Of a stretch of DNA of 64,000 bases, positions 36,453-63,740 are shown piece after piece. Positions within the stretch are counted from its first letter, which is position 1. Each line of letters begins with the position of its first letter. The DNA is taken from NCBI RefSeq assembly GCF_031624635.1, contig NZ_JAMQOQ010000004.1, forward strand, positions 186,001 to 250,000, written 5' to 3'. The position numbers and the translations under genes are program-made. Source of the DNA: Halogeometricum sp. S3BR5-2 (GTDB taxonomy: Archaea > Halobacteriota > Halobacteria > Halobacteriales > Haloferacaceae). The notes beneath the pieces were generated by a model. It had not been told where the DNA came from and did not search any database. It was given only the letters and a program-made list of their open reading frames with translations.

Positions 36453-37292
36453 CTACTCGCGCAGTTCCCCGAGCGGGTTCGGTAGCAGGCTCTCGCCCTG
36501 CTCCTGCCGGTCGGCGGCGGACCGCGCCGCCTCGACGCTCGCGAACGCGACGAATGCGCCGGCGACCACGTCCGTCGCCCAGTGGATGCCGAGGTACATC
36601 GTCGAGACGGCGATGGACACCGCGAGGAAGAGCGCGATGGGCGTCCACCGCGGGTAGACGCCGCGGAACCGCCACGCGAGGAGCGCGACGGTGCCCGACA
36701 GCGAGGTGTGCAGCGACGGGAAGACGTTCGTGTTCACGTTCACCTGACTCGTCAGCAACTGCGCCTGCGGCCAACTGTTGTACAGCAGCGGTTGCACCAT
36801 GTCCGGCATGAAGTTCCGCGGCCCGTAGGCGACGAACAGGATGTAACAGAGCAGGCCGACGCCGTAGTTCACGATGTAGGCGAACAGGACGACGCGGAGG
36901 GGGCGGGACTCCTCGTGCATCGCGTACGCCGCCAGCGGGAACACGAGGAGGAACACGTAGCCGAAGATGTAGACGAACCCGAAGTACGCCGTCAGCGCCG
37001 GCGTCGCGAACGACTGCACGAACGCGACGGTGCTCCCCTCGACGGCGTGGATGTAGCCGGTGATGTTCAGCCCGATGAGCCACGACAGTTCGACGCCGAT
37101 GTCGCGGATGACGCCGTTGGCGGCGAGGACGGCGACGAGGGCGACGAACGTCGGAGCGACGGCGCGGGCGTTCGACCGGACGGTCCGGGGGGCGGACCGG
37201 AGCCGCGACGGTCCGACGACGAGCACCGCGGCGACGACGAGGAGTGCGGACACGCCCGCGCCGACCTGCAGGACGACGTCGACGAGCGCCAT
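36453..37292 (-). CDS. PAP2-family membrane phosphatase
   Basis: A 279-residue membrane protein with about six helices. FPSLHTSLSG and YLGIHWATDVVAGA are the second and third phosphatase signature motifs with the two catalytic His residues. YGPRNFMPD contributes the first, degenerate motif. It resembles inositolphosphotransferase-type PAP2 enzymes and acts on lipid phosphates at the membrane. Its ATG overlaps the stop codon of the upstream solute-binding protein by one base (TGATG), so the two are coupled. Confidence 0.87.
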   Translation of the reverse strand: MALVDVVLQVGAGVSALLVVAAVLVVGPSRLRSAPRTVRSNARAVAPTFVALVAVLAANGVIRDIGVELSWLIGLNITGYIHAVEGSTVAFVQSFATPALTAYFGFVYIFGYVFLLVFPLAAYAMHEESRPLRVVLFAYIVNYGVGLLCYILFVAYGPRNFMPDMVQPLLYNSWPQAQLLTSQVNVNTNVFPSLHTSLSGTVALLAWRFRGVYPRWTPIALFLAVSIAVSTMYLGIHWATDVVAGAFVAFASVEAARSAADRQEQGESLLPNPLGELRE

Positions 37293-39265
37293 CAGTTACC
37301 CTCCAGCAGTCGCCCGTCGGAGTACTGATAGCCCGCGTCGCGGAACGCCTCTCTCGCCTCGTCGACGTTCAGTTCGCCGTCGCTCCCGAGGAACGGCGTC
37401 ACGGGGTTCTCCCCCTCCCACCGCAGGTCCTCGGGGAGCCACTCCGTCCCGGCCAGCGGGCTCACCGCGCCCCGGGCGTAGCCGCCGAACACGTCGCTCA
37501 CGAGGAACGACTGGTCGACGAGTCGCGCCAGCGTGTTCCTGAACCGAGGGTTCGTCGTCGGCGACCGACCGGCGTTGTGCCCGAGGATGAACGGCGTCTC
37601 CGACCGACCGACGAGCAGTTCGAGGTCCCGCGCGCGGCCGATGCGGGGGACCGTCGAGGCGCCGACGGTCGTCCCGGTCACGTCGGCGTCGGCGTCGGCG
37701 ACCATCTCGACGGCCGTCGCGTCGGAGCCGACGACCTGCACGGACAGCCGTTCGAACTCGGGCGGTCGGGCCGGCACGCCCGCCTCGGCCGCCGCCTCGA
37801 AGAGGAAGTGCTCGTCGAACCGGTCGAGCACGAGCGACTCGCGCGGCGTGTTCTGCGCGAACTCGAACGGGCCGCTCCCGACCGGCGGGATGTTGTTCGT
37901 CACGATGGCCTCGGTGGCGGGGCCGATTTCGATACCGCTGACCGACGCCCGCGAGGTCCGCTCCTCCCAGATGTGTTTGGGGAGCACCGGCACGGTGAAC
38001 GCCCGCGTCGCCAGTTCGGGTTCGCACTCGACGAAGTCGAACTCGACGGTGCGCGTTCCCGCCGCGCGCACGTCCGCGACGAGGCTGTTCCGCCCCTGGA
38101 ACCGCGGCGCGGGGATGCGCGCGTCGCTCTCGTCCTCGGTCGTCGTCCCCGTCTCCATCGCCGTGTCCGCGAGGAGGCGGTGGGTGAACGCGACGTCCTC
38201 GGCCGTGAGGTCCTCGCCGTCGTGCCACGTCAGGTCGGGCCGGAGCCGAACCGACGCGCTCGGCGCGTCCCCGGTCCCGGAGAACGCCCACGACTCCGCC
38301 AGCCATGCCTCGACGCCGTCGCCCGTCTCGACGCCGAGCGAGTCGTACAGGAGGCCCGTGATGAGACCGTCGCGTCGGTACTCGACCGATAGGGGGTTGA
38401 GATTCTCCGTCGCCCGCCTGTCGGTCGTCGCCGTCCGGAGCGTGCGCGCCCCGTCCGCCGCCGTCGCGACCTCGGTCGGGGTCGGAGTTGGGGTCGGCGT
38501 AGGGGTCGACGTCGGCGTGGCGGTCCGCGACGACGAGTTCGAGTTCCGGTTCCGGCTCCGGTTCGAGGCCGCTCCGACCGTCCCGTCGGTTCCGGCGGTC
38601 GTCGTCGCGTCCGTTGCCGGGGTGGCGCCGTCGACGCCGCTGCGCGTCAGCGACAGGTAGCCCAGCGGGGAGTCGAGGTCGGCGGTCCGCCAGTTCCGGT
38701 AGTTGTCGGTGCGGGCCGCGCGGATGTCGTCGGGGAACGAGAGGAGGGTGAACGGCTGGCTTCGGGCGATGCTCCGCTGGAGTTCGTACACCGCCTCGCG
38801 TCGCTCCTCGCCCGTGGTCGTGCGCTGGGTCTCCAGCAGGTCGTCGACGTCGAGGTTCGCGTAGCCGAACGGGTTCTGCCACCCCGGGGCGTCGGCGAAC
38901 CGCGAGTGCAGGAGCGAGTAGAGCCCGTCGGGTTGGTGAAACTGGTCGGGGAGCCGCGCGACGAACAGTTCGAAGTCGTTCTGCACCAGCACCTGCCGGA
39001 GAAGTTCCTCGCTGGCCATCGGCGTCACCTGCGCGCCGATGCCGGCCGCGCGGAACCACGCCGCGACCTGACGCGCGATGCGCAGGGCGTAGGGGTCGGC
39101 GTCGGCCGGCACGGTCTTGATTTCGAGGGAGACCTGGTTCGCCGACCGCCAGCCCGCGACCGTCCGCAACCGGCGCACGCATCCGCCGGAGAGCGCAGTC
39201 ACGCCTGTCGCGAGCGTCCCGAGGACGGCTCGCCGACGGACCGTGGAGGGCGACGACTGTGGCAT
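37292..39265 (-). CDS. Family 5 (peptide-type) solute-binding lipoprotein, circularly permuted
   Basis: A 657-residue TAT lipoprotein (TVRRRAVLGTLATG, lipobox Cys29). Residues about 45-210 (IKTVPADADPYALRIARQV, AAGIGAQV, GWQNPFGYANLDVDDLL, EERREAVYELQ) match the C-terminal lobe of family 5 binding proteins. A Thr/Pro/Ser linker (211-270) follows, and residues about 273-657 contain the normal N-terminal part (ENLNPL, LAESWAFS, WHDGEDLTAEDVAFTH, VPVLPKHIWEE), ending with AREAFRDAGYQYSDGRLL. In a canonical protein that last motif directly precedes the segment that is here at the N-terminus. No permease or ATPase genes are adjacent. Its ligand is unknown. Confidence 0.87.
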   Translation of the reverse strand: MPQSSPSTVRRRAVLGTLATGVTALSGGCVRRLRTVAGWRSANQVSLEIKTVPADADPYALRIARQVAAWFRAAGIGAQVTPMASEELLRQVLVQNDFELFVARLPDQFHQPDGLYSLLHSRFADAPGWQNPFGYANLDVDDLLETQRTTTGEERREAVYELQRSIARSQPFTLLSFPDDIRAARTDNYRNWRTADLDSPLGYLSLTRSGVDGATPATDATTTAGTDGTVGAASNRSRNRNSNSSSRTATPTSTPTPTPTPTPTEVATAADGARTLRTATTDRRATENLNPLSVEYRRDGLITGLLYDSLGVETGDGVEAWLAESWAFSGTGDAPSASVRLRPDLTWHDGEDLTAEDVAFTHRLLADTAMETGTTTEDESDARIPAPRFQGRNSLVADVRAAGTRTVEFDFVECEPELATRAFTVPVLPKHIWEERTSRASVSGIEIGPATEAIVTNNIPPVGSGPFEFAQNTPRESLVLDRFDEHFLFEAAAEAGVPARPPEFERLSVQVVGSDATAVEMVADADADVTGTTVGASTVPRIGRARDLELLVGRSETPFILGHNAGRSPTTNPRFRNTLARLVDQSFLVSDVFGGYARGAVSPLAGTEWLPEDLRWEGENPVTPFLGSDGELNVDEAREAFRDAGYQYSDGRLLEGN

Positions 39266-39966: not shown

Positions 39967-41358
39967 ATGGCTTCCAATCGGCGAGCGCTCCGCGGTCTGC
40001 TCGCGGCGTTGGTCCTCGTCTCTTCGGTCGTCCTCGCCGTCGGTTACGTGGACGCGCAGCGGAACAACGACCGGGTGACGGGCGACCCGGCGGTCGAACA
40101 GGCGTTCCGGACGGGCGACCGGACGCAAGTCGTCGCTCCCCGAGACAATATCACCGTCGTGGCGACGGACTCGAACGCGTTCGTCAGCGACGAGAGCGAC
40201 AGCCCCCGCGCGCAGGCCGAACTCGCGGCGTTCGCGCCCGACGGCAGCGTCTACTACTACCAGAACGAACACACCCGGTACTGGGACGTCGACCCCGTCC
40301 CGAACACGACGGCGACCGTCGAGTTCGTCTACGCCGACCACCTCGACGCCGACGAGTGCGGCGAGACGGTCTGCACGCGGAACGGCGTCGAGCGGGTGAA
40401 CCTCACCACCGGCGAGTCCGAAGAGGTGTTCAGCCGCATCACGCCCGGAAAACACTCGACGCGGTGGCACGACGTCGACCGCCTCGGTCCCGACCGCCTC
40501 CTCGTCGCCGACATCCACCAGGACCGCGTGTTCGTCGTCAACACGACGACGAACCTGACGACGTGGGAGTGGGACGCGCAGTCGGACTTCGACGTGGCGA
40601 CCAGCGGCGGGCCGTTCCCCGAGGACTGGACGCACCTCAACGACGTGGAGTCCGTCACCGTCGACGGCGAACGGGCCGTGATGGTGAGCCTCCGCAACCA
40701 CGACCAAGTGGTGTTCATCGACCCCGACGAGGGGTTGATGGAGGAGTGGACGCTCGGGACCGACGACAACCACTCGATACTGTACGAACAGCACAACCCC
40801 GACTTCATCCCCGCCGAGGAGGGCGGACCGGCGCTGCTCGTCGCGGACTCCGAGAACGGCCGCGTGATAGAGTACCAACGCGAGGGCGGCGAGTGGGTCG
40901 AGTCGTGGACGTGGGTCGACCGGCGGATGCAGTGGCCGCGCGACGCCGACCGCCTGCCGAACGGTCACACCCTCGTCACCGACTCGAACGGCGACCGCAC
41001 CTTCGAGATAGACGAGGAGGGCGAAGTCGTCTGGACCGCCTCCATCGGCTTCCCGTACGAGTCCGAGCGGCTGGGAACCGGCGACGAGAGCGCCGGCGGG
41101 GAGAGCGCCGCGAGCCTCGGCCTCCCCTCGCGGACGGCCTCGGACCTCGAACCGACGCTGACCTCGCGCGTCGCGTCCGTCGTCCCGCCGACGGTGCGTA
41201 ACGCGATATCCTACGCCTTCCCGCGCTGGGTGGGGCTCCTCGAAGGCCTCGCCGCCCTCGCGCTTCTCGGGTCGCTCGTCGCGTGGGGTGTGCTGGAGTA
41301 CCGCTGGTCGGACCGGACCGTTAGCTTTCAGTCGCCGCTGCGCGTCCGGAGGAAGTAG
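39967..41358 (+). CDS. Arylsulfotransferase-like membrane-anchored protein
   Basis: A 463-residue protein anchored at both ends: an N-terminal helix (about 9-27) and a C-terminal helix (about 421-440). The extracellular part is a repeat propeller with short strands ending in WHDVDRLGPDRLLVAD, DWTHLNDVESV, QHNPDFIP and RDADRLPNGHTLV, the pattern of arylsulfotransferase-family (ASST-like) propellers. His residues in WHD and THLND fit the ASST active site. The next gene, a multi-spanning protein, starts 2 nt after its stop, so the two probably act on the same cell-surface glycan or lipid. Confidence 0.8.
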   Translation: MASNRRALRGLLAALVLVSSVVLAVGYVDAQRNNDRVTGDPAVEQAFRTGDRTQVVAPRDNITVVATDSNAFVSDESDSPRAQAELAAFAPDGSVYYYQNEHTRYWDVDPVPNTTATVEFVYADHLDADECGETVCTRNGVERVNLTTGESEEVFSRITPGKHSTRWHDVDRLGPDRLLVADIHQDRVFVVNTTTNLTTWEWDAQSDFDVATSGGPFPEDWTHLNDVESVTVDGERAVMVSLRNHDQVVFIDPDEGLMEEWTLGTDDNHSILYEQHNPDFIPAEEGGPALLVADSENGRVIEYQREGGEWVESWTWVDRRMQWPRDADRLPNGHTLVTDSNGDRTFEIDEEGEVVWTASIGFPYESERLGTGDESAGGESAASLGLPSRTASDLEPTLTSRVASVVPPTVRNAISYAFPRWVGLLEGLAALALLGSLVAWGVLEYRWSDRTVSFQSPLRVRRK

Positions 41359-41360
41359 AC

Positions 41361-42953
41361 GTGGCAGATCCTTCGCTCCGCTCCCGGTTCGCCCGGTCGG
41401 TCCGGTTCGAAGACGACCTCCCGATAGACGTGCGCGACGGGGTGTGGCTCGCGCTCGCGGTCCTCCCGGCGCTGGTCTCCGTCGCGGTCTACCTCGCGAC
41501 GAACCCCTACCCGGCCTACGGTGCGGGCCTGTACGCGCAGATCGCCCGCGAAATCGTCGCCAACGGCTACCTCCCGCCGGCGCGCATTCCCGGCTACACG
41601 GCCGACGGCGTCCCGTTCGCCTACCCGCCGCTGCAGTTCTACGTGTTCGCCGTGCTCCGCGATATCGGGGTCGGCCCGGTCGCAGTGGCGCGGTTTCTCC
41701 CCGCCGTGGCCGTCGTCGCCGTGCAGGTGCCCGTGTACGTGCTCGCGCGCGACCTGCTGGACTCTCGGCCGGCGGGGACCGTCGCGGCGGCGGGCGTCGC
41801 GCTGAACCCGCAGATACTGGAGTGGCATCTCTCGGCGGGCGGCGTCGTCCGCGGCTTCGCCTTCCTGTACGCGCTGACGGCCATCTGCGCTGGCTACCGG
41901 CTGTTCACGACCGGCGACCTCCGCGCGCTGGTCGCGGGCGTCGTCGCCTTCGGACTGACGGTGCTGTCGCATCCGACGTACACCCTGTTCACCGTCGTGA
42001 GCTACCTGCTGCTCTGGCTCGCGCTCGACCGCTCGCTCGCCGGTCTCGTCCGCGGCGCCGCCGTCGGCGTCGGCGGCGCGGTGGTCGCCAGCCCGTGGCT
42101 CCTCTGGGCCGTCTCCACGCACGGCCCCGGCGTGTTCACCTCCGCCGCGGGGACGCACGGCGGCATCGGCGGCGGCGTCGGGGCGATATTCGGCGGCATC
42201 TCGGTCTACAGCCTCGTTCCCCTGCTCGCCGCGGCCTACCTCCTCGTCGTCCGCCGGGACCTCCTCCTCCCGGCGTGGGTCGTCGTCGCCGAACTGCTGT
42301 TCCAGCAGCCGAGGTTCGTCTACACCGTCGGAACGTTCGCCCTCGTCGCCGTCGGCTTCGACCTCGTCCGGCGCTTCTCCCTCGCCGAACGGCTCGGCCG
42401 GACCCTCGGCGGTCGGGCGGACGGCACCGACTGGCGCGCCGCGGGCGTCGCGGCCCTCGTCGTCGTCGCGTCGCTCGGCGGCGGCACGGTCCTCGCCTAC
42501 CAGAACACCCTCCCGTCGGACCCCTCGACGCCGGAGTTCCTCGACGACGAGGCGGTGGACGCGATGGCGTGGGCCGAGGCGGAGACCCCGCCGGACGCCA
42601 CGTTCGTCGTCCTCGGTGACGCCGCCGAGTGGTTCCCGGCGCTGACCCAGCGGACGATTCTGGTCGGCATGTGGGGCGTCGAGTGGGAGGAGCCGGAGGT
42701 GTACGAGGCTCAGACGGACGCCTACGTGAACGCCTCGACCTGCCAGAGCGTCGGATGCGTCGAGACGGCCATGCAGTCGGTGGACGCCAACCCGGACTAC
42801 GTCTACGTTCCGAAGGGACGCTACACGGTCCGCGGCGCCAGCGAGGTGCAGTTCGGCACGCTCGAACGCTCCTTCGAGGCCTCGCAGCGCTGGGAACTCG
42901 CCTTCGAGAACGACGGCGTCGCCGTCTACCGCTCGCTCGCCCGCGGCGAGTAG
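41361..42953 (+). CDS. GT-C-like multi-spanning membrane protein
   Basis: A 530-residue protein with about ten helices and a C-terminal soluble domain (from about 400). The first loop (PYPAYGAGLYAQIAREIV, then ADGVPFAYPPLQFY) has the size and layout of GT-C glycosyltransferases and oligosaccharyltransferases. However, I do not see the usual Asp-Glu or Glu-Asp pair there, so catalytic activity is uncertain. The C-terminal part contains a Cys pair (STCQSVGCVET) that could form an extracytoplasmic disulfide. The GTG start is 2 nt after the arylsulfotransferase-like gene, implying a shared operon. Confidence 0.75.
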   Translation: MADPSLRSRFARSVRFEDDLPIDVRDGVWLALAVLPALVSVAVYLATNPYPAYGAGLYAQIAREIVANGYLPPARIPGYTADGVPFAYPPLQFYVFAVLRDIGVGPVAVARFLPAVAVVAVQVPVYVLARDLLDSRPAGTVAAAGVALNPQILEWHLSAGGVVRGFAFLYALTAICAGYRLFTTGDLRALVAGVVAFGLTVLSHPTYTLFTVVSYLLLWLALDRSLAGLVRGAAVGVGGAVVASPWLLWAVSTHGPGVFTSAAGTHGGIGGGVGAIFGGISVYSLVPLLAAAYLLVVRRDLLLPAWVVVAELLFQQPRFVYTVGTFALVAVGFDLVRRFSLAERLGRTLGGRADGTDWRAAGVAALVVVASLGGGTVLAYQNTLPSDPSTPEFLDDEAVDAMAWAEAETPPDATFVVLGDAAEWFPALTQRTILVGMWGVEWEEPEVYEAQTDAYVNASTCQSVGCVETAMQSVDANPDYVYVPKGRYTVRGASEVQFGTLERSFEASQRWELAFENDGVAVYRSLARGE

Positions 42954-42975: not shown

Positions 42976-44115
42976 TCACACGACGCCGAACAGCGGTAGC
43001 CCGAGCGCCACGAGCCACGCCACGGCCCCGGCGCTGATGGTCTGTCTGTCCTGACGCGCGACGCCGACGGCGAACAGGCCGAGCGCGCTGACCAGCGCGA
43101 TTCGGTGGAGGACGAACTGCACGGAGACGGCGTTCGCGCCGACGGCGCCGAGGTCGAGGACGACGCCGGCGCCCAAGCCGGCGGCGGCGAGCAGCGCCGA
43201 CTGCGTCGCCGGCCGGTCGCGCGCGAAGACGGTGACGAGGAACGGCGGCCCGGCGACGATGACCGGGTAGAGCGCCGCGGCGAACAGTTTCGGGGTGACG
43301 CCCGGAATCGCGTGCTCCAGCGCGATACCGGCCGACCGGACGCCGAGGATGAGGCCCGCGAGCGTCACCGGCAGGACGGCGGCGTCGGCGACGTCGCGGT
43401 GCCGGTGTCCGAACGGGACGACGGAGGCGACTGCGCCGGCCGCGCCGGCGACCGAGACGAGTTCGATGATGGTTATCCAGCCGTCGCTGCCGCCGCCGCC
43501 GAGGCCGTGGTACTCGCGGCTGATGCGCTCGACGAACGGTTCATCGCGCAGGTCGCGTTCGAGGAAGCGCGCGCCGGGAGCGACGCCGGTGACGGTGTGC
43601 CGCAGGCGGAGCCAGTCCCAGTACTCGGTGTGCGCCTGGAACGCGGTCCAGTTGCCCGACGGAGCCGGATACGCCCGGATGTGTATCCGCTCGCCGAGGT
43701 AGGTGCCGGTCGCCAACTGGTACTCCGACTCGAACCAGCGGCCGGTGATGTTCGGGTCGACGGTGACGTACGTGTAGCGCGACGCGCCGCGGGCCGGTTG
43801 CCACTCCGACTCGCTGATGGTGGCGTTGTCGTCGTCGACGACGGCCGTCCAGTTGGTCTCCGCGCGGCGCTCCAAGGCCATCCTCGTCCGGTCGGGGTCG
43901 CCGACGATGAGGACGTTGAGCGCGAGGGTTCGGCCCGTCACGGACCGACTCCGACTCGTGTACGGCCACACCTGCGTTCCCGTCTCCTCCGGTTGGATGA
44001 GTTGGTCCTCCCGCGGCAGCACCGTCTCCTCGCTCCCGGGAGCGCCGAGCAGGATGCTCCCCGCGAGAGCGAGAACGACGAGGGCCACGAGCGCTGTTCG
44101 TCGGTGGTATCGCAC
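42976..44115 (-). CDS. Haloarchaeal membrane protein, unknown function
   Basis: A GTG at 44115 opens 379 residues. An N-terminal helix (about 6-24) anchors an extracellular domain of about 180 residues with aromatic-rich strands (TYVTVDPNITGRWFE, HTEYWDWLRLRHTV). Five or six helices follow. The domain order, one helix, an outside domain, then a helix bundle, is common among haloarchaeal cell-envelope proteins, but I do not recognise the family. It is convergent with the GT-C-like gene (22-nt gap). Confidence 0.72.
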   Translation of the reverse strand: MRYHRRTALVALVVLALAGSILLGAPGSEETVLPREDQLIQPEETGTQVWPYTSRSRSVTGRTLALNVLIVGDPDRTRMALERRAETNWTAVVDDDNATISESEWQPARGASRYTYVTVDPNITGRWFESEYQLATGTYLGERIHIRAYPAPSGNWTAFQAHTEYWDWLRLRHTVTGVAPGARFLERDLRDEPFVERISREYHGLGGGGSDGWITIIELVSVAGAAGAVASVVPFGHRHRDVADAAVLPVTLAGLILGVRSAGIALEHAIPGVTPKLFAAALYPVIVAGPPFLVTVFARDRPATQSALLAAAGLGAGVVLDLGAVGANAVSVQFVLHRIALVSALGLFAVGVARQDRQTISAGAVAWLVALGLPLFGVV

Positions 44116-58320: not shown

Positions 58321-58610
58321 ACCGGTGTAAGGCCCGTCATTCCATATCACACTTTGCACTCGTCTCGGTGGATAGCGTCAGGATAGTCAACCCTCGAAGA
58401 TGCTGGGGCGCGCAGGTCGGGTGCGGCGATTCCGGGAAGCCGTGGAACCGCGCGGGCCCGAAAACTACCTGCCAGAGCGGAGAAATACCGGAGCAAAGGC
58501 CGGGAGACGGCGGTGACGGAGCGCCAAATTAGTAGCCATCCGACACGACCTCCGGCAAGCTCCAATTGAATGGGAACATTTATTATAATTAGAGGGGGTC
58601 CTCTAGTGTG
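58321..58610. other. Divergent promoter region, GH2 / sugar ABC importer
   Basis: 290 nt with no gene. At the right end, TTATTATAATT (58580-58590) is a strong TATA box for the importer, followed by a palindrome. On the left, a CCATATCA element around 58343-58351 could serve the GH2 gene on the minus strand. Confidence 0.6.
58590..58605 (+). promoter_or_regulatory. Palindromic operator at sugar ABC importer promoter
   Basis: TAGAGG-GGGT-CCTCTA, perfect 6-bp arms with a 4-nt centre. It lies between the TATA box (about 58582-58587) and the ATG at 58611, over the expected transcription start, the place of a repressor site. Confidence 0.55.
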
Positions 58611-59978
58611 ATGTCATCCGGTAACACGAGAGATACAGCAGATGACACGCCGAAGCGAGACGCGTCATCGAGCCGCGTCGACCGGCGACAATTTATGAAA
58701 GCAACCGGCGTGACCGGTCTCGCCGGTCTCGGCGGTCTCGCTGGCTGTCTCGGAATGGGCGGCGGCGGGGGCGGCGGTGGCGGCGGTGGAGGCGGCGGCA
58801 ACGGGAGTATCGAACTCAACTACTGGACTCTGTTCGGTGGCGGCGACGGAGAGGTGATGAAGTCTATCATCGACAAGTTCAACGAGGAACAGCCGCTGGG
58901 CGACAACATCAGCATCAACCGCCAGCGGACCCCGTGGGAGGAACACTACAACCGCCTGTTCACCTCGATGACGGGCGGGGACCCGCCGGACATGGCCGTC
59001 TCGCACGCCTCGTACCTGCGCCGGTTTCAGGACACGCTGGTCGACATCCAGGACAGGGTCTCCTCGAACGACTACGTGGACTCGATCCTGAGCGCCTGTC
59101 AGCTTGACGGCGGGCAGTACGCCGTGCCGATGGACTCCCATCCGGTCGGGCTGTACTACAACGTCGATATCCTCAACGAGGCCGGTGTGGAGCCGCCGAT
59201 CGAGAACTACTCGCAGTTCGAGGAGGCGTGCAACGCCATCCTCGAGAACACGGACGCGCTCCCGTTCAGCCCCGACCCCTACTGGGGAGGCGGCGGCGGA
59301 TTCAGACAGTGGTTCATGGGTCTCAACCAGTACGGCGGGTCGATGTTCAACGACGACCTCACGGAAGCGACCTTCGGCGACGAGGCGGGAACGGGGTCGT
59401 TGGAGTTCCTCGCGAGCGTCTCGGGTGAGCGCGGCTGGGATCGCCCGGACATCTCCGAGGACCGCGTGGCCCAGAGCTTCCGTAACGGCTCGGTCGCCAT
59501 GACCGTCAACGGGACGTGGTACGTCAACGTGATGCGCGAACAGGATTTCGAGTGGGGCTTCGACAAGCCCCGCGTGTTCCCGGAGGCAGACCAGCTCCGG
59601 TCGACCGCCGACAGCCACACGATCGTCGTCCCGCAGAAGTCGAATGCGAGCGACGAACGGGTCCAAGCGGCCGTCGACGCCGCCGAGTGGATCACGCAGG
59701 AGAACCCCTCGTGGGGCGCGGAGGCCGGCCACCTGCCGGCGTACAACCCCATTCTGAACAGCGACGAACTCCAGAGCGCCGACATCTGGGAGAAGACGCT
59801 GAAGTCGTTCACGGAGATGGCGAACGACGGACAGTTGGCCTACTGGCCGCAGTTGCCGAACGCCGACTTGTACGCGGGGAGCAACTGGACGTGGGTGACC
59901 GACGCCTACTCGCAGAACACGGAAGCCCAGCAGGCCATCCAACAGGGCGTCGAGACCTGGAACTCCAACCTCGGGTAA
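58611..59978 (+). CDS. Sugar ABC transporter substrate-binding lipoprotein (family 1)
   Basis: A 455-residue protein, ATG at 58611 (a GTG codon directly before it is the less likely start). The signal VDRRQFMKATGVTG has twin Arg and lipobox LAGC. A run of 14 consecutive glycines follows the lipidated Cys and serves as a tether. The mature part is a MalE-type binding protein (LNYWTLFGGGDGEVMKSI, DPPDMAVSHASYL, YAVPMDSHPVGLYYNVDIL). Many Trp and Tyr residues fit oligosaccharide binding. It heads an operon with two permeases and a YesL-like gene. Confidence 0.93.
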   Translation: MSSGNTRDTADDTPKRDASSSRVDRRQFMKATGVTGLAGLGGLAGCLGMGGGGGGGGGGGGGGNGSIELNYWTLFGGGDGEVMKSIIDKFNEEQPLGDNISINRQRTPWEEHYNRLFTSMTGGDPPDMAVSHASYLRRFQDTLVDIQDRVSSNDYVDSILSACQLDGGQYAVPMDSHPVGLYYNVDILNEAGVEPPIENYSQFEEACNAILENTDALPFSPDPYWGGGGGFRQWFMGLNQYGGSMFNDDLTEATFGDEAGTGSLEFLASVSGERGWDRPDISEDRVAQSFRNGSVAMTVNGTWYVNVMREQDFEWGFDKPRVFPEADQLRSTADSHTIVVPQKSNASDERVQAAVDAAEWITQENPSWGAEAGHLPAYNPILNSDELQSADIWEKTLKSFTEMANDGQLAYWPQLPNADLYAGSNWTWVTDAYSQNTEAQQAIQQGVETWNSNLG

Positions 59979-59999
59979 TCGACGAGGAACTCACATATA

Positions 60000-60923
60000 A
60001 TGTCAGTCATCGATCGATTCGGCGGGGTCGTGGGAACGCTCAGTTCCGACAGTCGGTCGCGTCGGGAGTTCGTGGAGGGCGTCCTCTTCTCGCTCCCGTA
60101 TCTCATCATCTTCGCGGTGTTCCTGCTCTACCCGCTGTTGATGGGGGGATACATGAGCCTGTTCGACTGGAACGCGATCGCCCCCGCGGAGTCCGTCTTC
60201 CTCGGGCTAGAGAACTACGCGACACTCCTCAACGACTCGCAGTTCTGGAACGCGCTCGGCAACACGTTCTACTTCGCGCTCCTGACGGTGCCGTCGATCG
60301 TCGTGGTCGGGTTGGGGCTCGCGTTGGGCGTCAACCGCGATATCAGGGGACAGGGGTTCCTCCGCGCGATCTTCTTCAGTCCGTACATCCTCACGGTGTC
60401 CGTCACGGCGCTCGTGTGGATCGACATGTACTCCACCCAGTACGGGGTGCTCAACCACTATCTCGGGATGGTGATGGCCAACCCACCCCAGTGGCTCCAG
60501 TCGCGACTGTTCGCGATGCCCGCCATCGCCATGACCACCGTCTGGTGGCTGGTCGGCTTCAGCTTCGTCATCCTGCTCGCCGCCAGACAGAGCGTGCCTA
60601 CCTACCTCTACGAGGCGGCCAAACTCGACGGCGCGGGGACGTGGCGACAGTTCCGCGACGTGACCGTCCCCCAGATGCGTCACGCCATCTTCTTCGTCGT
60701 CGTCATCAACCTCATCTGGGCGTTCCAGGTGTACGGCCAACCGTACATCATGACGTCGGGCGGTCCGAGCCAGACGACGGAGACGCTCGTGATGTACCTG
60801 TACCAAGCGGCGTTCAACCAACGGAACTTCGGCTACGCGGCCGCGATCGGGTACGTGCTGACGGGGATACTCGTCGCCGTCTCCATCGCGAACTACTACC
60901 TCCTCGGAGGCGACAATGAGTAA
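60000..60923 (+). CDS. Sugar ABC transporter permease, MalF/UgpA type
   Basis: A 307-residue permease with six helices after an N-terminal polar segment of 25 residues. The EAA loop (EAAKLDGAGTWRQFRDVTVP) that contacts the ATPase is intact. It starts 21 nt after the binding-protein stop and overlaps the next permease by 8 nt. Confidence 0.94.
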   Translation: MSVIDRFGGVVGTLSSDSRSRREFVEGVLFSLPYLIIFAVFLLYPLLMGGYMSLFDWNAIAPAESVFLGLENYATLLNDSQFWNALGNTFYFALLTVPSIVVVGLGLALGVNRDIRGQGFLRAIFFSPYILTVSVTALVWIDMYSTQYGVLNHYLGMVMANPPQWLQSRLFAMPAIAMTTVWWLVGFSFVILLAARQSVPTYLYEAAKLDGAGTWRQFRDVTVPQMRHAIFFVVVINLIWAFQVYGQPYIMTSGGPSQTTETLVMYLYQAAFNQRNFGYAAAIGYVLTGILVAVSIANYYLLGGDNE

Positions 60924-61776
60924 AACAACGACAAGCCGGTTCGCATCGTTCGACGTCGGTGGAATAACCGCCCGGAGCGCCTTGGTACACATCGCGATGT
61001 ACGGGGCCGCGTTCCTGTTCGTGGTCCCCTACATCTACATGATCTCGACGTCGTTCATGACCCAACAGGACGCCGTCGCACAGGGGATGAACTGGATTCC
61101 CGACCCGGTCACGATCGGGTCGTACGTGCAACTGTTCGCCGGGTCGCAGATCATCCAGTGGTCGATCAACACGCTCATCATCTCGTCGGTGACGACGCTG
61201 CTCGTGTTGCTCGTGGACTCGATGATAGCCTTCTCGCTCACGCGACTCGAGTGGCCGGGCCAGCGCTACATCCTCGCGCTCATCATCGCGAGCTTCATGG
61301 TTCCCGGCTTCGTGAACATCATCCCGCTGTATCTCGTGGTGTCCGACCTCGGCCTCCTCAACAACTACCTCGCGGTCATCCTCCCGTTCGCGGCGGGACC
61401 GCTGGGGGTGTTCCTCCTCGCGCAGTTCTTCCGCGATATCCCGTACGAACTGCAGGAGGCCGCCCAACTCGACGGCTTCTCCAACTTCAGGATCTACACC
61501 CGGATGATCCTGCCGCTGTCGAAGTCGATTCTGACGGCGCTGGCGCTGTTCATCTTCGTCTGGAGTTGGAACCAGTTCCTCTGGCCGTTGATCGTCCTCC
61601 AGAGCGAGGCGGCGTACACGCTACCCATCGGCGTGGTCGTCCTGCAGGACAACTTCACCTACCAGCCCGCGCTGACGATGGCCTCGGCCGTCGTCGCCTC
61701 GGGCCCGCTGTTCATCCTGTTCTTGCTGCTGCAAGAACAGCTCATGACCGCCGTCGAGATGCAGGGCGTGACGTAA
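60916..61776 (+). CDS. Sugar ABC transporter permease, MalG/UgpE type
   Basis: A 286-residue permease with six helices. The coupling EAA loop is EAAQLDGFSNFRIYTRMILP. Its ATG lies inside the end of the MalF-type gene. Together the two permeases form the membrane channel for the imported oligosaccharide. Confidence 0.94.
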   Translation: MSKTTTSRFASFDVGGITARSALVHIAMYGAAFLFVVPYIYMISTSFMTQQDAVAQGMNWIPDPVTIGSYVQLFAGSQIIQWSINTLIISSVTTLLVLLVDSMIAFSLTRLEWPGQRYILALIIASFMVPGFVNIIPLYLVVSDLGLLNNYLAVILPFAAGPLGVFLLAQFFRDIPYELQEAAQLDGFSNFRIYTRMILPLSKSILTALALFIFVWSWNQFLWPLIVLQSEAAYTLPIGVVVLQDNFTYQPALTMASAVVASGPLFILFLLLQEQLMTAVEMQGVT

Positions 61777-61809
61777 CACTGTTAACGTTCCACGCCCCTC
61801 GTTGGGCAA

Positions 61810-62463
61810 ATGAGGGACGCTGATACGAAGACGGTGTACCGATCGTTCGTCTCCGCGGCGCGGTTCTTCTACGAGCACGGACCGCGGCTGGTCGCGGTGA
61901 GCGTGCTCTGGTTCCTCTGCTCCCTCCCGTTAGTCACCGTCGGTCCGGCGACGCTCGGCGCCTATGCGGCGGTCGCGTCGCTCCGCGAAGGACACGCGTT
62001 CGACCGAGAGCGGGTCGTGGCGACACTCAAGCGGCACGGTGTCTCGGCCGTACTGCTCTCGGGGGTTCCGCTCGTCTTCGCGGCTATCGCGGCGCTGTAC
62101 GCGCGGCGCTACCTCCTCACGCGTTCGACTGTCGCGCTCGTGCTGGGTGTCCTCACCACCTACGCCGCGGCGTACGCGGCCTTGGTACTGATTCCAACCT
62201 TCGCGGGCCTCGTCGCCGGTGAGGACCTCGAAACGGCGCTCAGGGCCGGCGTCAGGTGGACCGGACGGAACGCGGCCAGCAGCGTCATGATCGGACTGGG
62301 GACGGTTCTCCTCTTCGCCGTGACCGGCGCGCTGACCATCGCGTTCGCGGTCGTCTTCGGCGGCATGGTCGCCGCGTTCCATCTCGAAGCGCTGCTCGGC
62401 CCGCCGCCGAAGTCTGAGGCGGCGGAGGACCACTGGTCGCCCTACGAGAGCGCTCGCCGGTAG
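61810..62463 (+). CDS. YesL-like (DUF624) membrane protein
   Basis: A 217-residue membrane protein with about five helices. VSVLWFLCSLPLVTVGPATL near the N-terminus is the signature of the YesL family, which in Bacillus is found in carbohydrate uptake loci such as the rhamnogalacturonan operon. It follows the MalG-type permease by 33 nt in the same operon. Its molecular role is unknown; a helper of the importer is the usual guess. Confidence 0.85.
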   Translation: MRDADTKTVYRSFVSAARFFYEHGPRLVAVSVLWFLCSLPLVTVGPATLGAYAAVASLREGHAFDRERVVATLKRHGVSAVLLSGVPLVFAAIAALYARRYLLTRSTVALVLGVLTTYAAAYAALVLIPTFAGLVAGEDLETALRAGVRWTGRNAASSVMIGLGTVLLFAVTGALTIAFAVVFGGMVAAFHLEALLGPPPKSEAAEDHWSPYESARR

Positions 62464-62600
62464 CCCGAACCACACTGCGGCCGACGTCGACGAAGGGTGT
62501 GAGGCGGTGAGGTTAGCGCGAAGAAGAGCTCAACGGGACGAGAGGGTCGGCACCGCGGCGCCCCGACGATGACGATTCTGGGCCCGGACCTCGAAACGGC

Positions 62601-63740
62601 TCACGTCCGCTGTGGGGTGGGTTCGTGCGCCGTCTCGGTGGCACGACCGGTGTCGACCATCACGTTGTTACCGCTCGCACGGTCGAAGATGTGCATCTTG
62701 TCCTCGTCGAACGTGACGCCGATTTCGTCGCCCTCGTCGTACCGGTAATCGCCCATCACGCGCATCGTGAACTCGACGCCGTCCGACCGGAGGTAGAAGT
62801 AGTTGTCGTCGCCGACGGGTTCGTGCACGTCGAGTTCGGCCGGTATCGCGTCGGCGGACCCCCGTTCGGCGAAGTGGAAGTGTTCCGGACGGACGCCGAG
62901 CACGAGGTCGTCCGAGACGGCTCGTTCGCGGATTCGGTCCCGTGTCTCGGCGGACACCTCGTAGGAGAACGCCTTGCTCTCCAGCGTGGCGCCGTGCAGT
63001 TCCACGTCGAAGAAGTTCATCGACGGCGATCCGATGAAGTCGGCGACGAACAGGTTCGCGGGTCGGTTGAACACCTCCTTGGGTGTTCCCACCTGCTGGA
63101 GGTCACCGCCGTCGAGGATCACCACGCGGTCGGACATCGTCAGCGCCTCCTCCTGGTCGTGGGTCACGTACACCGTCGTCGTATCCAGGTCGTCCTGTAT
63201 CCGCTGGAGTTCCGTCCGCATGTGCGCGCGGAGTTTGGCGTCGAGATTCGAGAGTGGTTCGTCCATCAGGAAGACCTCCGGCTCCCGAACGATTGCCCGG
63301 CCGGTCGCGACGCGCTGTTGTTGTCCGCCCGAGAGCGCGGCGGGTTTCTTGCCGAGTTGGTCTTCGATACCCATCATCTCCGCCGCCTCCTCGACGCGAT
63401 CGGCTATCTCGTCGTTCGAGAGGTCCGAGGTGAGCTTCAGCCCGTACGACATGTTCTTCCTGACCGTCATGTGGGGGTACAGCGCGTAGTTCTGGAACAC
63501 CATCGCTACGTTGCGGTCCTGCGCCGGGACGTCGTTCACCACTCGGCCACCGATGCTGATGGACCCGTCGGATATCTCTTCGAGGCCGGCGAGCATCCGC
63601 AGCAGCGTCGATTTCCCCGACCCGGAGGGACCGACGACCGTGATGAACTCCCCGTCCTCGATGTCGAGAGAGAAATCGTCGACAGCCACGATGTCTCCGT
63701 CGTACACCTTCCGAACGTCCTCGAATCGTACTTCGCTCAT
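62601..63740 (-). CDS. Sugar ABC transporter ATPase, MalK/UgpC/MsmX type
   Basis: A 379-residue ATPase. Walker A is GPSGSGKST (residues 37-45), the signature LSGGQQQRVATGRAI, Walker B VFLMDEPLSNLD and the switch His in TVYVTHDQEEAL. The C-terminal TOBE-type regulatory domain (about 240-360) is the carbohydrate-type extension. It is convergent with, not within, the permease operon (137-nt gap), so it could be shared by several importers. An AT-rich TTATAAATT box lies about 25-35 nt before its ATG. Confidence 0.95.
   Translation of the reverse strand: MSEVRFEDVRKVYDGDIVAVDDFSLDIEDGEFITVVGPSGSGKSTLLRMLAGLEEISDGSISIGGRVVNDVPAQDRNVAMVFQNYALYPHMTVRKNMSYGLKLTSDLSNDEIADRVEEAAEMMGIEDQLGKKPAALSGGQQQRVATGRAIVREPEVFLMDEPLSNLDAKLRAHMRTELQRIQDDLDTTTVYVTHDQEEALTMSDRVVILDGGDLQQVGTPKEVFNRPANLFVADFIGSPSMNFFDVELHGATLESKAFSYEVSAETRDRIRERAVSDDLVLGVRPEHFHFAERGSADAIPAELDVHEPVGDDNYFYLRSDGVEFTMRVMGDYRYDEGDEIGVTFDEDKMHIFDRASGNNVMVDTGRATETAHEPTPQRT

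Follow-up and report, generated by a model that had tools for sequence, protein, structure and literature searches.

Circular permutation appears to be a recurrent event in the family-5 solute-binding proteins (SBPs). We consider it quite probable that the same cut has been made at least three times independently (in a haloarchaeal and actinobacterial class, in an Archaeoglobi-like genus and in Thermoproteota), that two other cuts were made in six Thermoproteota proteins, that the lipid anchor was moved between lobes, and that one clade has left ABC transport for a membrane PAP2 enzyme. A member of this clade is encoded in the window, i.e. the whole stretch of 64,000 nucleotides analysed here, and it almost certainly has the permuted architecture: an exported lipoprotein in which the SBP is cut after the helix ending AGYxY.DG and the old termini are joined by a linker. 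In haloarchaea natural permuted SBPs are common; elsewhere they occur sporadically, in several phyla, and profiles call them plain SBPs. For sensors, circular permutation of binding proteins is a routine engineering step. In the open-access PMC literature we found engineered ones only and no natural permuted SBP; subscription journals lay outside this scope, and the result is no proof of absence.

Segment order and predicted fold of the window protein

The SBP gene and its parts are as follows.

37292..39265, minus strand: circularly permuted family-5 solute-binding lipoprotein, 657 aa (open reading frame, Pfam, PDB match, half-profiles)
39179..39265, minus strand: Tat-type signal peptide and lipobox, residues 1-29 (RRR...LSGGC; from the sequence)
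38645..39133, minus strand: old C-terminal SBP segment, about residues 45-207, now on the N-terminal side (PDB match, half-profile)
38444..38644, minus strand: Thr/Pro/Ser-rich linker (about residues 208-274) between the old termini (AlphaFold2 pLDDT)
37295..38443, minus strand: old N-terminal SBP segment, about residues 275-657 (Pfam, half-profile, 1xoc match)

The reading frame starts with ATG, contains no frameshift and encodes an RR Tat motif and an LSGGC lipobox, from which a lipid anchor is expected on Cys29. Both the RR pair and the lipobox Cys are invariant across the four permuted proteins of this genome. Pfam detects SBP_bac_5 (PF00496) only (E 2e-38). The match falls into two stretches, and the stronger one aligns residues 318-652 with profile positions 2-284 of 368. 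With 132.9 bits against a curated cut-off of 32.4, the protein belongs to this family by homology; the canonical N-to-C order of segments is absent, and it is a permuted variant. In comparisons with solved structures, residues 46-170 correspond to chain positions 336-454 of the canonical SBP 8efz, and residues 297-600 correspond to the first two thirds of canonical SBP chains. Half-profiles placed the C-half at residues 54-207 (E 2e-71) and the N-half at residues 275-656. These half-profiles were made from the permuted proteins of the same genome, the window protein among them, and the segment order hence rests on the independent Pfam and PDB matches, by which a C-half preceding the N-half is, at the level of sequence, far beyond chance. 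A canonical protein with an additional chance match was ruled out by the half-profile test, in which the bacterial loci from the scan with profile A1 (described below) came out in canonical order.

Thus both segments lie in one reading frame, swapped relative to homologs by a single cut, with the old termini joined. The old N-terminal segment ends at AREAFRDAGYQYSDG, and the cut common to permuted SBPs falls between a helix ending "AGY.." and the next strand. The initial annotation had proposed a permuted family-5 binding protein with old termini joined by a long linker; the motifs that it quoted are all present, and permutation and linker are both borne out by these matches. Linker length is the point that needed refinement, the long linker being particular to the window species: in the clade linked to PAP2 the median is 16 residues (range 5-161), and in permuted members linked to ABC genes linkers go down to 3-5 residues.

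AlphaFold2, run with 19 sequences, gave one ordered model with a disordered linker (pLDDT 79.8, pTM 0.78); 87 residues fall under pLDDT 50, and mature residues 184-243, the linker, are below 50. Positions 20-357 of AppA (1xoc) superpose on model residues 244-629 at 2.8 Å over 327 residues, and matches by Foldseek and VIA over the same residues comprise AppA, DppA, NikZ and LpqW (2grv). Both programs align sequentially and capture the larger segment only, so that the missing match for mature residues 1-183 is uninformative, and the evidence for closure of the permuted fold is solely the AlphaFold2 confidence. It might be argued that the two halves do not close within one chain and instead form two half-domains or a domain-swapped dimer, as the restriction of the superposition to residues 244-629 and the disordered linker would allow. 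We regard this as improbable in view of the pTM, reached with 87 residues under pLDDT 50, of the short linkers of ABC-linked members, and of an Archaeoglobi-like permuted protein whose two segments share 83-86% protein identity with a canonical relative and which has no long linker. The model also does not show the two separate incomplete domains that the initial annotation had set against a permuted fold. For a second, ABC-linked permuted protein (L127), AlphaFold2 gave pTM 0.74, with residues 1-70 disordered.

From the model we infer that the window SBP folds as one closed, two-lobed SBP. If lobe boundaries are taken as generally known for OppA and DppA, the lipid anchor would have changed lobes relative to a canonical SBP, and this displacement may alter how the SBP meets a membrane partner.

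Distribution and repeated origin of permuted binding proteins

The genome of the window (4.66 Mb) has 14 SBP_bac_5 matches. Four of these proteins are permuted: the window protein and one on each of contigs C1 (L015, 625 aa), C2 (L016, 582 aa) and C4 (L017, 653 aa). DppB/DppC-type permease genes lie directly 3' of L016 and L017, which thus head Dpp-type ABC operons, and the genome also has several canonical SBP-ABC operons. When profile A1, made from the four permuted proteins, was run against 99 genomes of the same family, collinear matches over the full length appeared throughout the set; other families of the order have them too, and dozens of haloarchaeal genomes contain permuted SBPs. The best match among named genomes is from Halogeometricum pallidum, at 88% identity. 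An error of assembly or gene calling, or a frameshift, has already been ruled out as the source and has a negligible chance, as the same arrangement recurs in many independently sequenced genomes, H. pallidum included, and the frame is continuous with a Tat lipobox; no point in its favour was found. In the tree, one canonical SBP of Halobaculum saliterrae (L071:5839-7983, a 714-aa chain) stands on a long branch amid the haloarchaeal permuted proteins, a position that may represent a reversal or a tree error.

Other proteins with the same cut point, which the initial annotation had proposed to look for, turned out to be widespread across archaea and bacteria. A protein from a Thermoprotei MAG (L122), which has the same cut, can be aligned over its whole length in permuted order, and permeases follow it; two further Thermoproteota proteins (L287 and L288) share this cut. 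It was also found in 3 of 149 Actinomycetota genomes (G369 Jiangella, G503 and G509), in 1 of 121 Chloroflexota genomes (G711) and in about 10 of 149 Bacillota genomes, six of them read as sequence and the others judged from full-range matches alone. No permuted SBP was confirmed in 150 Pseudomonadota genomes, where the candidates in G850 and G854 proved to be two adjacent canonical genes read through stops. Score cut-offs were used in these surveys, so the counts are lower bounds.

Two other cuts occur in Thermoproteota, near N-half model position 200 (L291, L292, L294 and L295) and near position 235-270 (L290 and L296); in all six proteins the missing piece sits at the opposite end of the chain. 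By eye, these six proteins have extra CARDB or Ig-like domains, and they have terminal transmembrane anchors. A further candidate, called permuted by the order script and still scored so in the first tree, consists of two SBPs fused in tandem, N-C-N-C, in 1011 aa, with a permease following (L176:4355-7390, in G257). It shows that an intermediate of the duplication/truncation route to permutation can exist.

The most recent case was found in one genus of a small-genome archaeal class that belongs to the same phylum as the window species and is probably Archaeoglobi. Within this genus the gene is permuted in G276 (L174), G268 (L175) and G315 (L211) and canonical in G252 (L209), G264 (L210), G341 and G342. 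DNA of G276 and G252 aligns in two blocks of swapped order, with 79.3% identity over 956 bp and 79.6% over 476 bp. On Yersinia DppA, residues 229-518 of the permuted protein correspond to 61-368 and residues 35-183 to 373-524. In other genera the orthologous DppBCDF operon is headed by the canonical gene. Where the gene is permuted, it lies inverted, divergent beside this Dpp operon, and in G252, G264, G341 and G342 the canonical gene lies elsewhere, without that operon. Relatives from before and after the event at about 80% DNA identity offer a rare chance to test the origin, cost and gain of a permutation.

In a tree of 62 rows, with halves restored to canonical order, seven arrangement changes are needed and the starred branches force four. 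The AU test rejected descent of every permuted SBP from one ancient event (p 3.7e-5). One permuted clade was rejected even without the two Archaeoglobi-like rows (p 0.012). A shared origin of the haloarchaeal and actinobacterial permuted rows was not rejected (p 0.63), the tree constrained to this clade being 6.8 log units better. Both subgroups were chosen with a first tree already known, so these two values carry less weight. Permuted family-5 SBPs very probably have at least three independent origins.

The PAP2 neighbour and possible functions

Two membrane proteins encoded near the window SBP recur beside its relatives.

36453..37292, minus strand: PAP2-superfamily (PF14378, PAP2_3) membrane enzyme, 279 aa (Pfam 9.6e-17, motifs)
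42976..44115, minus strand: uncharacterised membrane protein, 379 aa, with the motif WPYTSR..GRTLALNV (found repeatedly close to SBP-PAP2 pairs of several haloarchaeal genera)

The PAP2 start codon overlaps the SBP stop codon (TGATG), and the product belongs to PAP2_3 by score (61.8 bits against a cut-off of 27) and by its catalytic motifs PSLH and HWATD. The corresponding stretches, NTNVFPSLHTSL and MYLGIHWATDVVAG, are kept in eight aligned neighbours, with PSLH and GIHW..D (HWxxD) intact in all eight. Its closest solved relatives are weak matches, PgpB (9e-4) and Aur1 (0.07). The coupling to PAP2 and the lack of ABC partners, both remarked on earlier for this locus, extend to the whole clade: a PAP2 gene directly adjoins 44 of the 45 distinct SBP genes, on the same strand, and an ABC permease gene adjoins none. 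The sole gene without a PAP2 neighbour is the paralog L015 on contig C1, which has neither partner. PAP2-linked SBPs form one clade (support 1.0 in the first tree, 100 in the later tree), and several haloarchaeal families retain the linkage; DppB directly adjoins most permuted SBP genes outside this clade. No family-5 ABC permease gene lies beside the window SBP, as it would for a DppA/OppA-type receptor encoded with DppB/C-type permeases. The closest ABC genes of the window, about 20 kb off at 58608-63740, apparently belong to a different, sugar-type system, by inspection.

In several loci (L060 and L157-L160) two permuted SBP genes flank one PAP2 gene. The WPYTSR gene lies within 1.6 kb of 8 of the 45 PAP2-linked SBP rows, immediately upstream of the SBP in some genera, and a Pfam search of its product in the window gave no significant match. 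Upstream of the window SBP, divergent on the opposite strand (39967-42953, plus), an arylsulfotransferase-like gene is followed after 2 bp by a PMT_2-like membrane glycosyltransferase gene.

It is likely that SBP and PAP2 constitute a functional unit, with the reservation that adjacency is no proof of interaction. We favour, at a probability of about 0.6, the reading that a Tat-exported SBP has been exapted as partner of a membrane PAP2 phosphatase/phosphotransferase. The clade would have been recruited from a permuted transporter SBP, exported via Tat and lipid-anchored, and the window SBP would capture a ligand for the adjacent enzyme or regulate it. By analogy with LpqW, the unit might act in envelope lipid or lipid-linked glycan metabolism, a role that we put forward only tentatively.

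Permuted SBPs with the same cut occur in Dpp-type ABC operons, in this genome and elsewhere. Hence such operons can accommodate the permuted fold, and permutation by itself is no sign of lost transport. These relatives, together with the canonical SBP-ABC operons of the same genome, lend some weight to an orphan transport SBP that feeds a Dpp/Opp-type ABC transporter encoded elsewhere, with PAP2 as a loose conserved neighbour. Orphan SBP receptors do exist, so the missing permease lowers the chance of an ABC-receptor role without excluding it. Against it stand the stop/start overlap at the window locus and the neighbourhood of the clade, PAP2 in nearly every case and a permease never. Moreover, the peptide anchors of DppA type are lost: the equivalent of Arg355 is absent from the clade, and that of Asp408 is present in the window SBP and replaced in most members (mature E. 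coli numbering, identities taken from the title of PDB 8z1z and our own mapping). These residues appear to count against a standard dipeptide receptor, and we consider the transport explanation unlikely. Still less likely is a surface lipoprotein that works as a sensor, chaperone or scavenger with no dependence on ABC transporters or on PAP2 catalysis; the paralog without either partner would fit such a protein, and the retention of PAP2 linkage across several haloarchaeal families argues against it. The non-transport role hinted at in the initial annotation is thus strengthened by PAP2 linkage and loss of DppA-type anchors, and the role itself is still a matter of interpretation. As far as our literature search showed, the SBP-PAP2 unit is an unstudied envelope module of haloarchaea.

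Comparison with known systems

Like other members of SBP family 5 or cluster C (DppA, OppA, AppA and NikA; PF00496), the window protein is an exported lipoprotein, and both its segments match this family significantly; unlike them, it is permuted, and its clade has no ABC partner, has lost the Arg355 of DppA and has not kept Asp408. The neighbouring enzyme resembles PAP2_3 (Aur1-like) proteins and PgpB in its PF14378 match and in its PSLH and HxxxD motifs, and differs from them in being coupled to an SBP gene.

We know of no permutation in LpqW. This mycobacterial SBP-related lipoprotein is used in lipoglycan synthesis (PMC3229680). It shares with the window SBP an SBP-5-like fold on a lipoprotein (2grv), and it serves synthesis of envelope lipoglycan, not uptake. 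Different enzymes are encoded near it, and the parallel is one of fold-level similarity and analogy.

cpRAS GTPases are an example of natural circular permutants of another family (PMC2430557). As in permuted SBPs, their conserved motifs occur in rotated order. The fold is different, and in SBPs the same cut has been reused independently, with canonical relatives at about 80% DNA identity.
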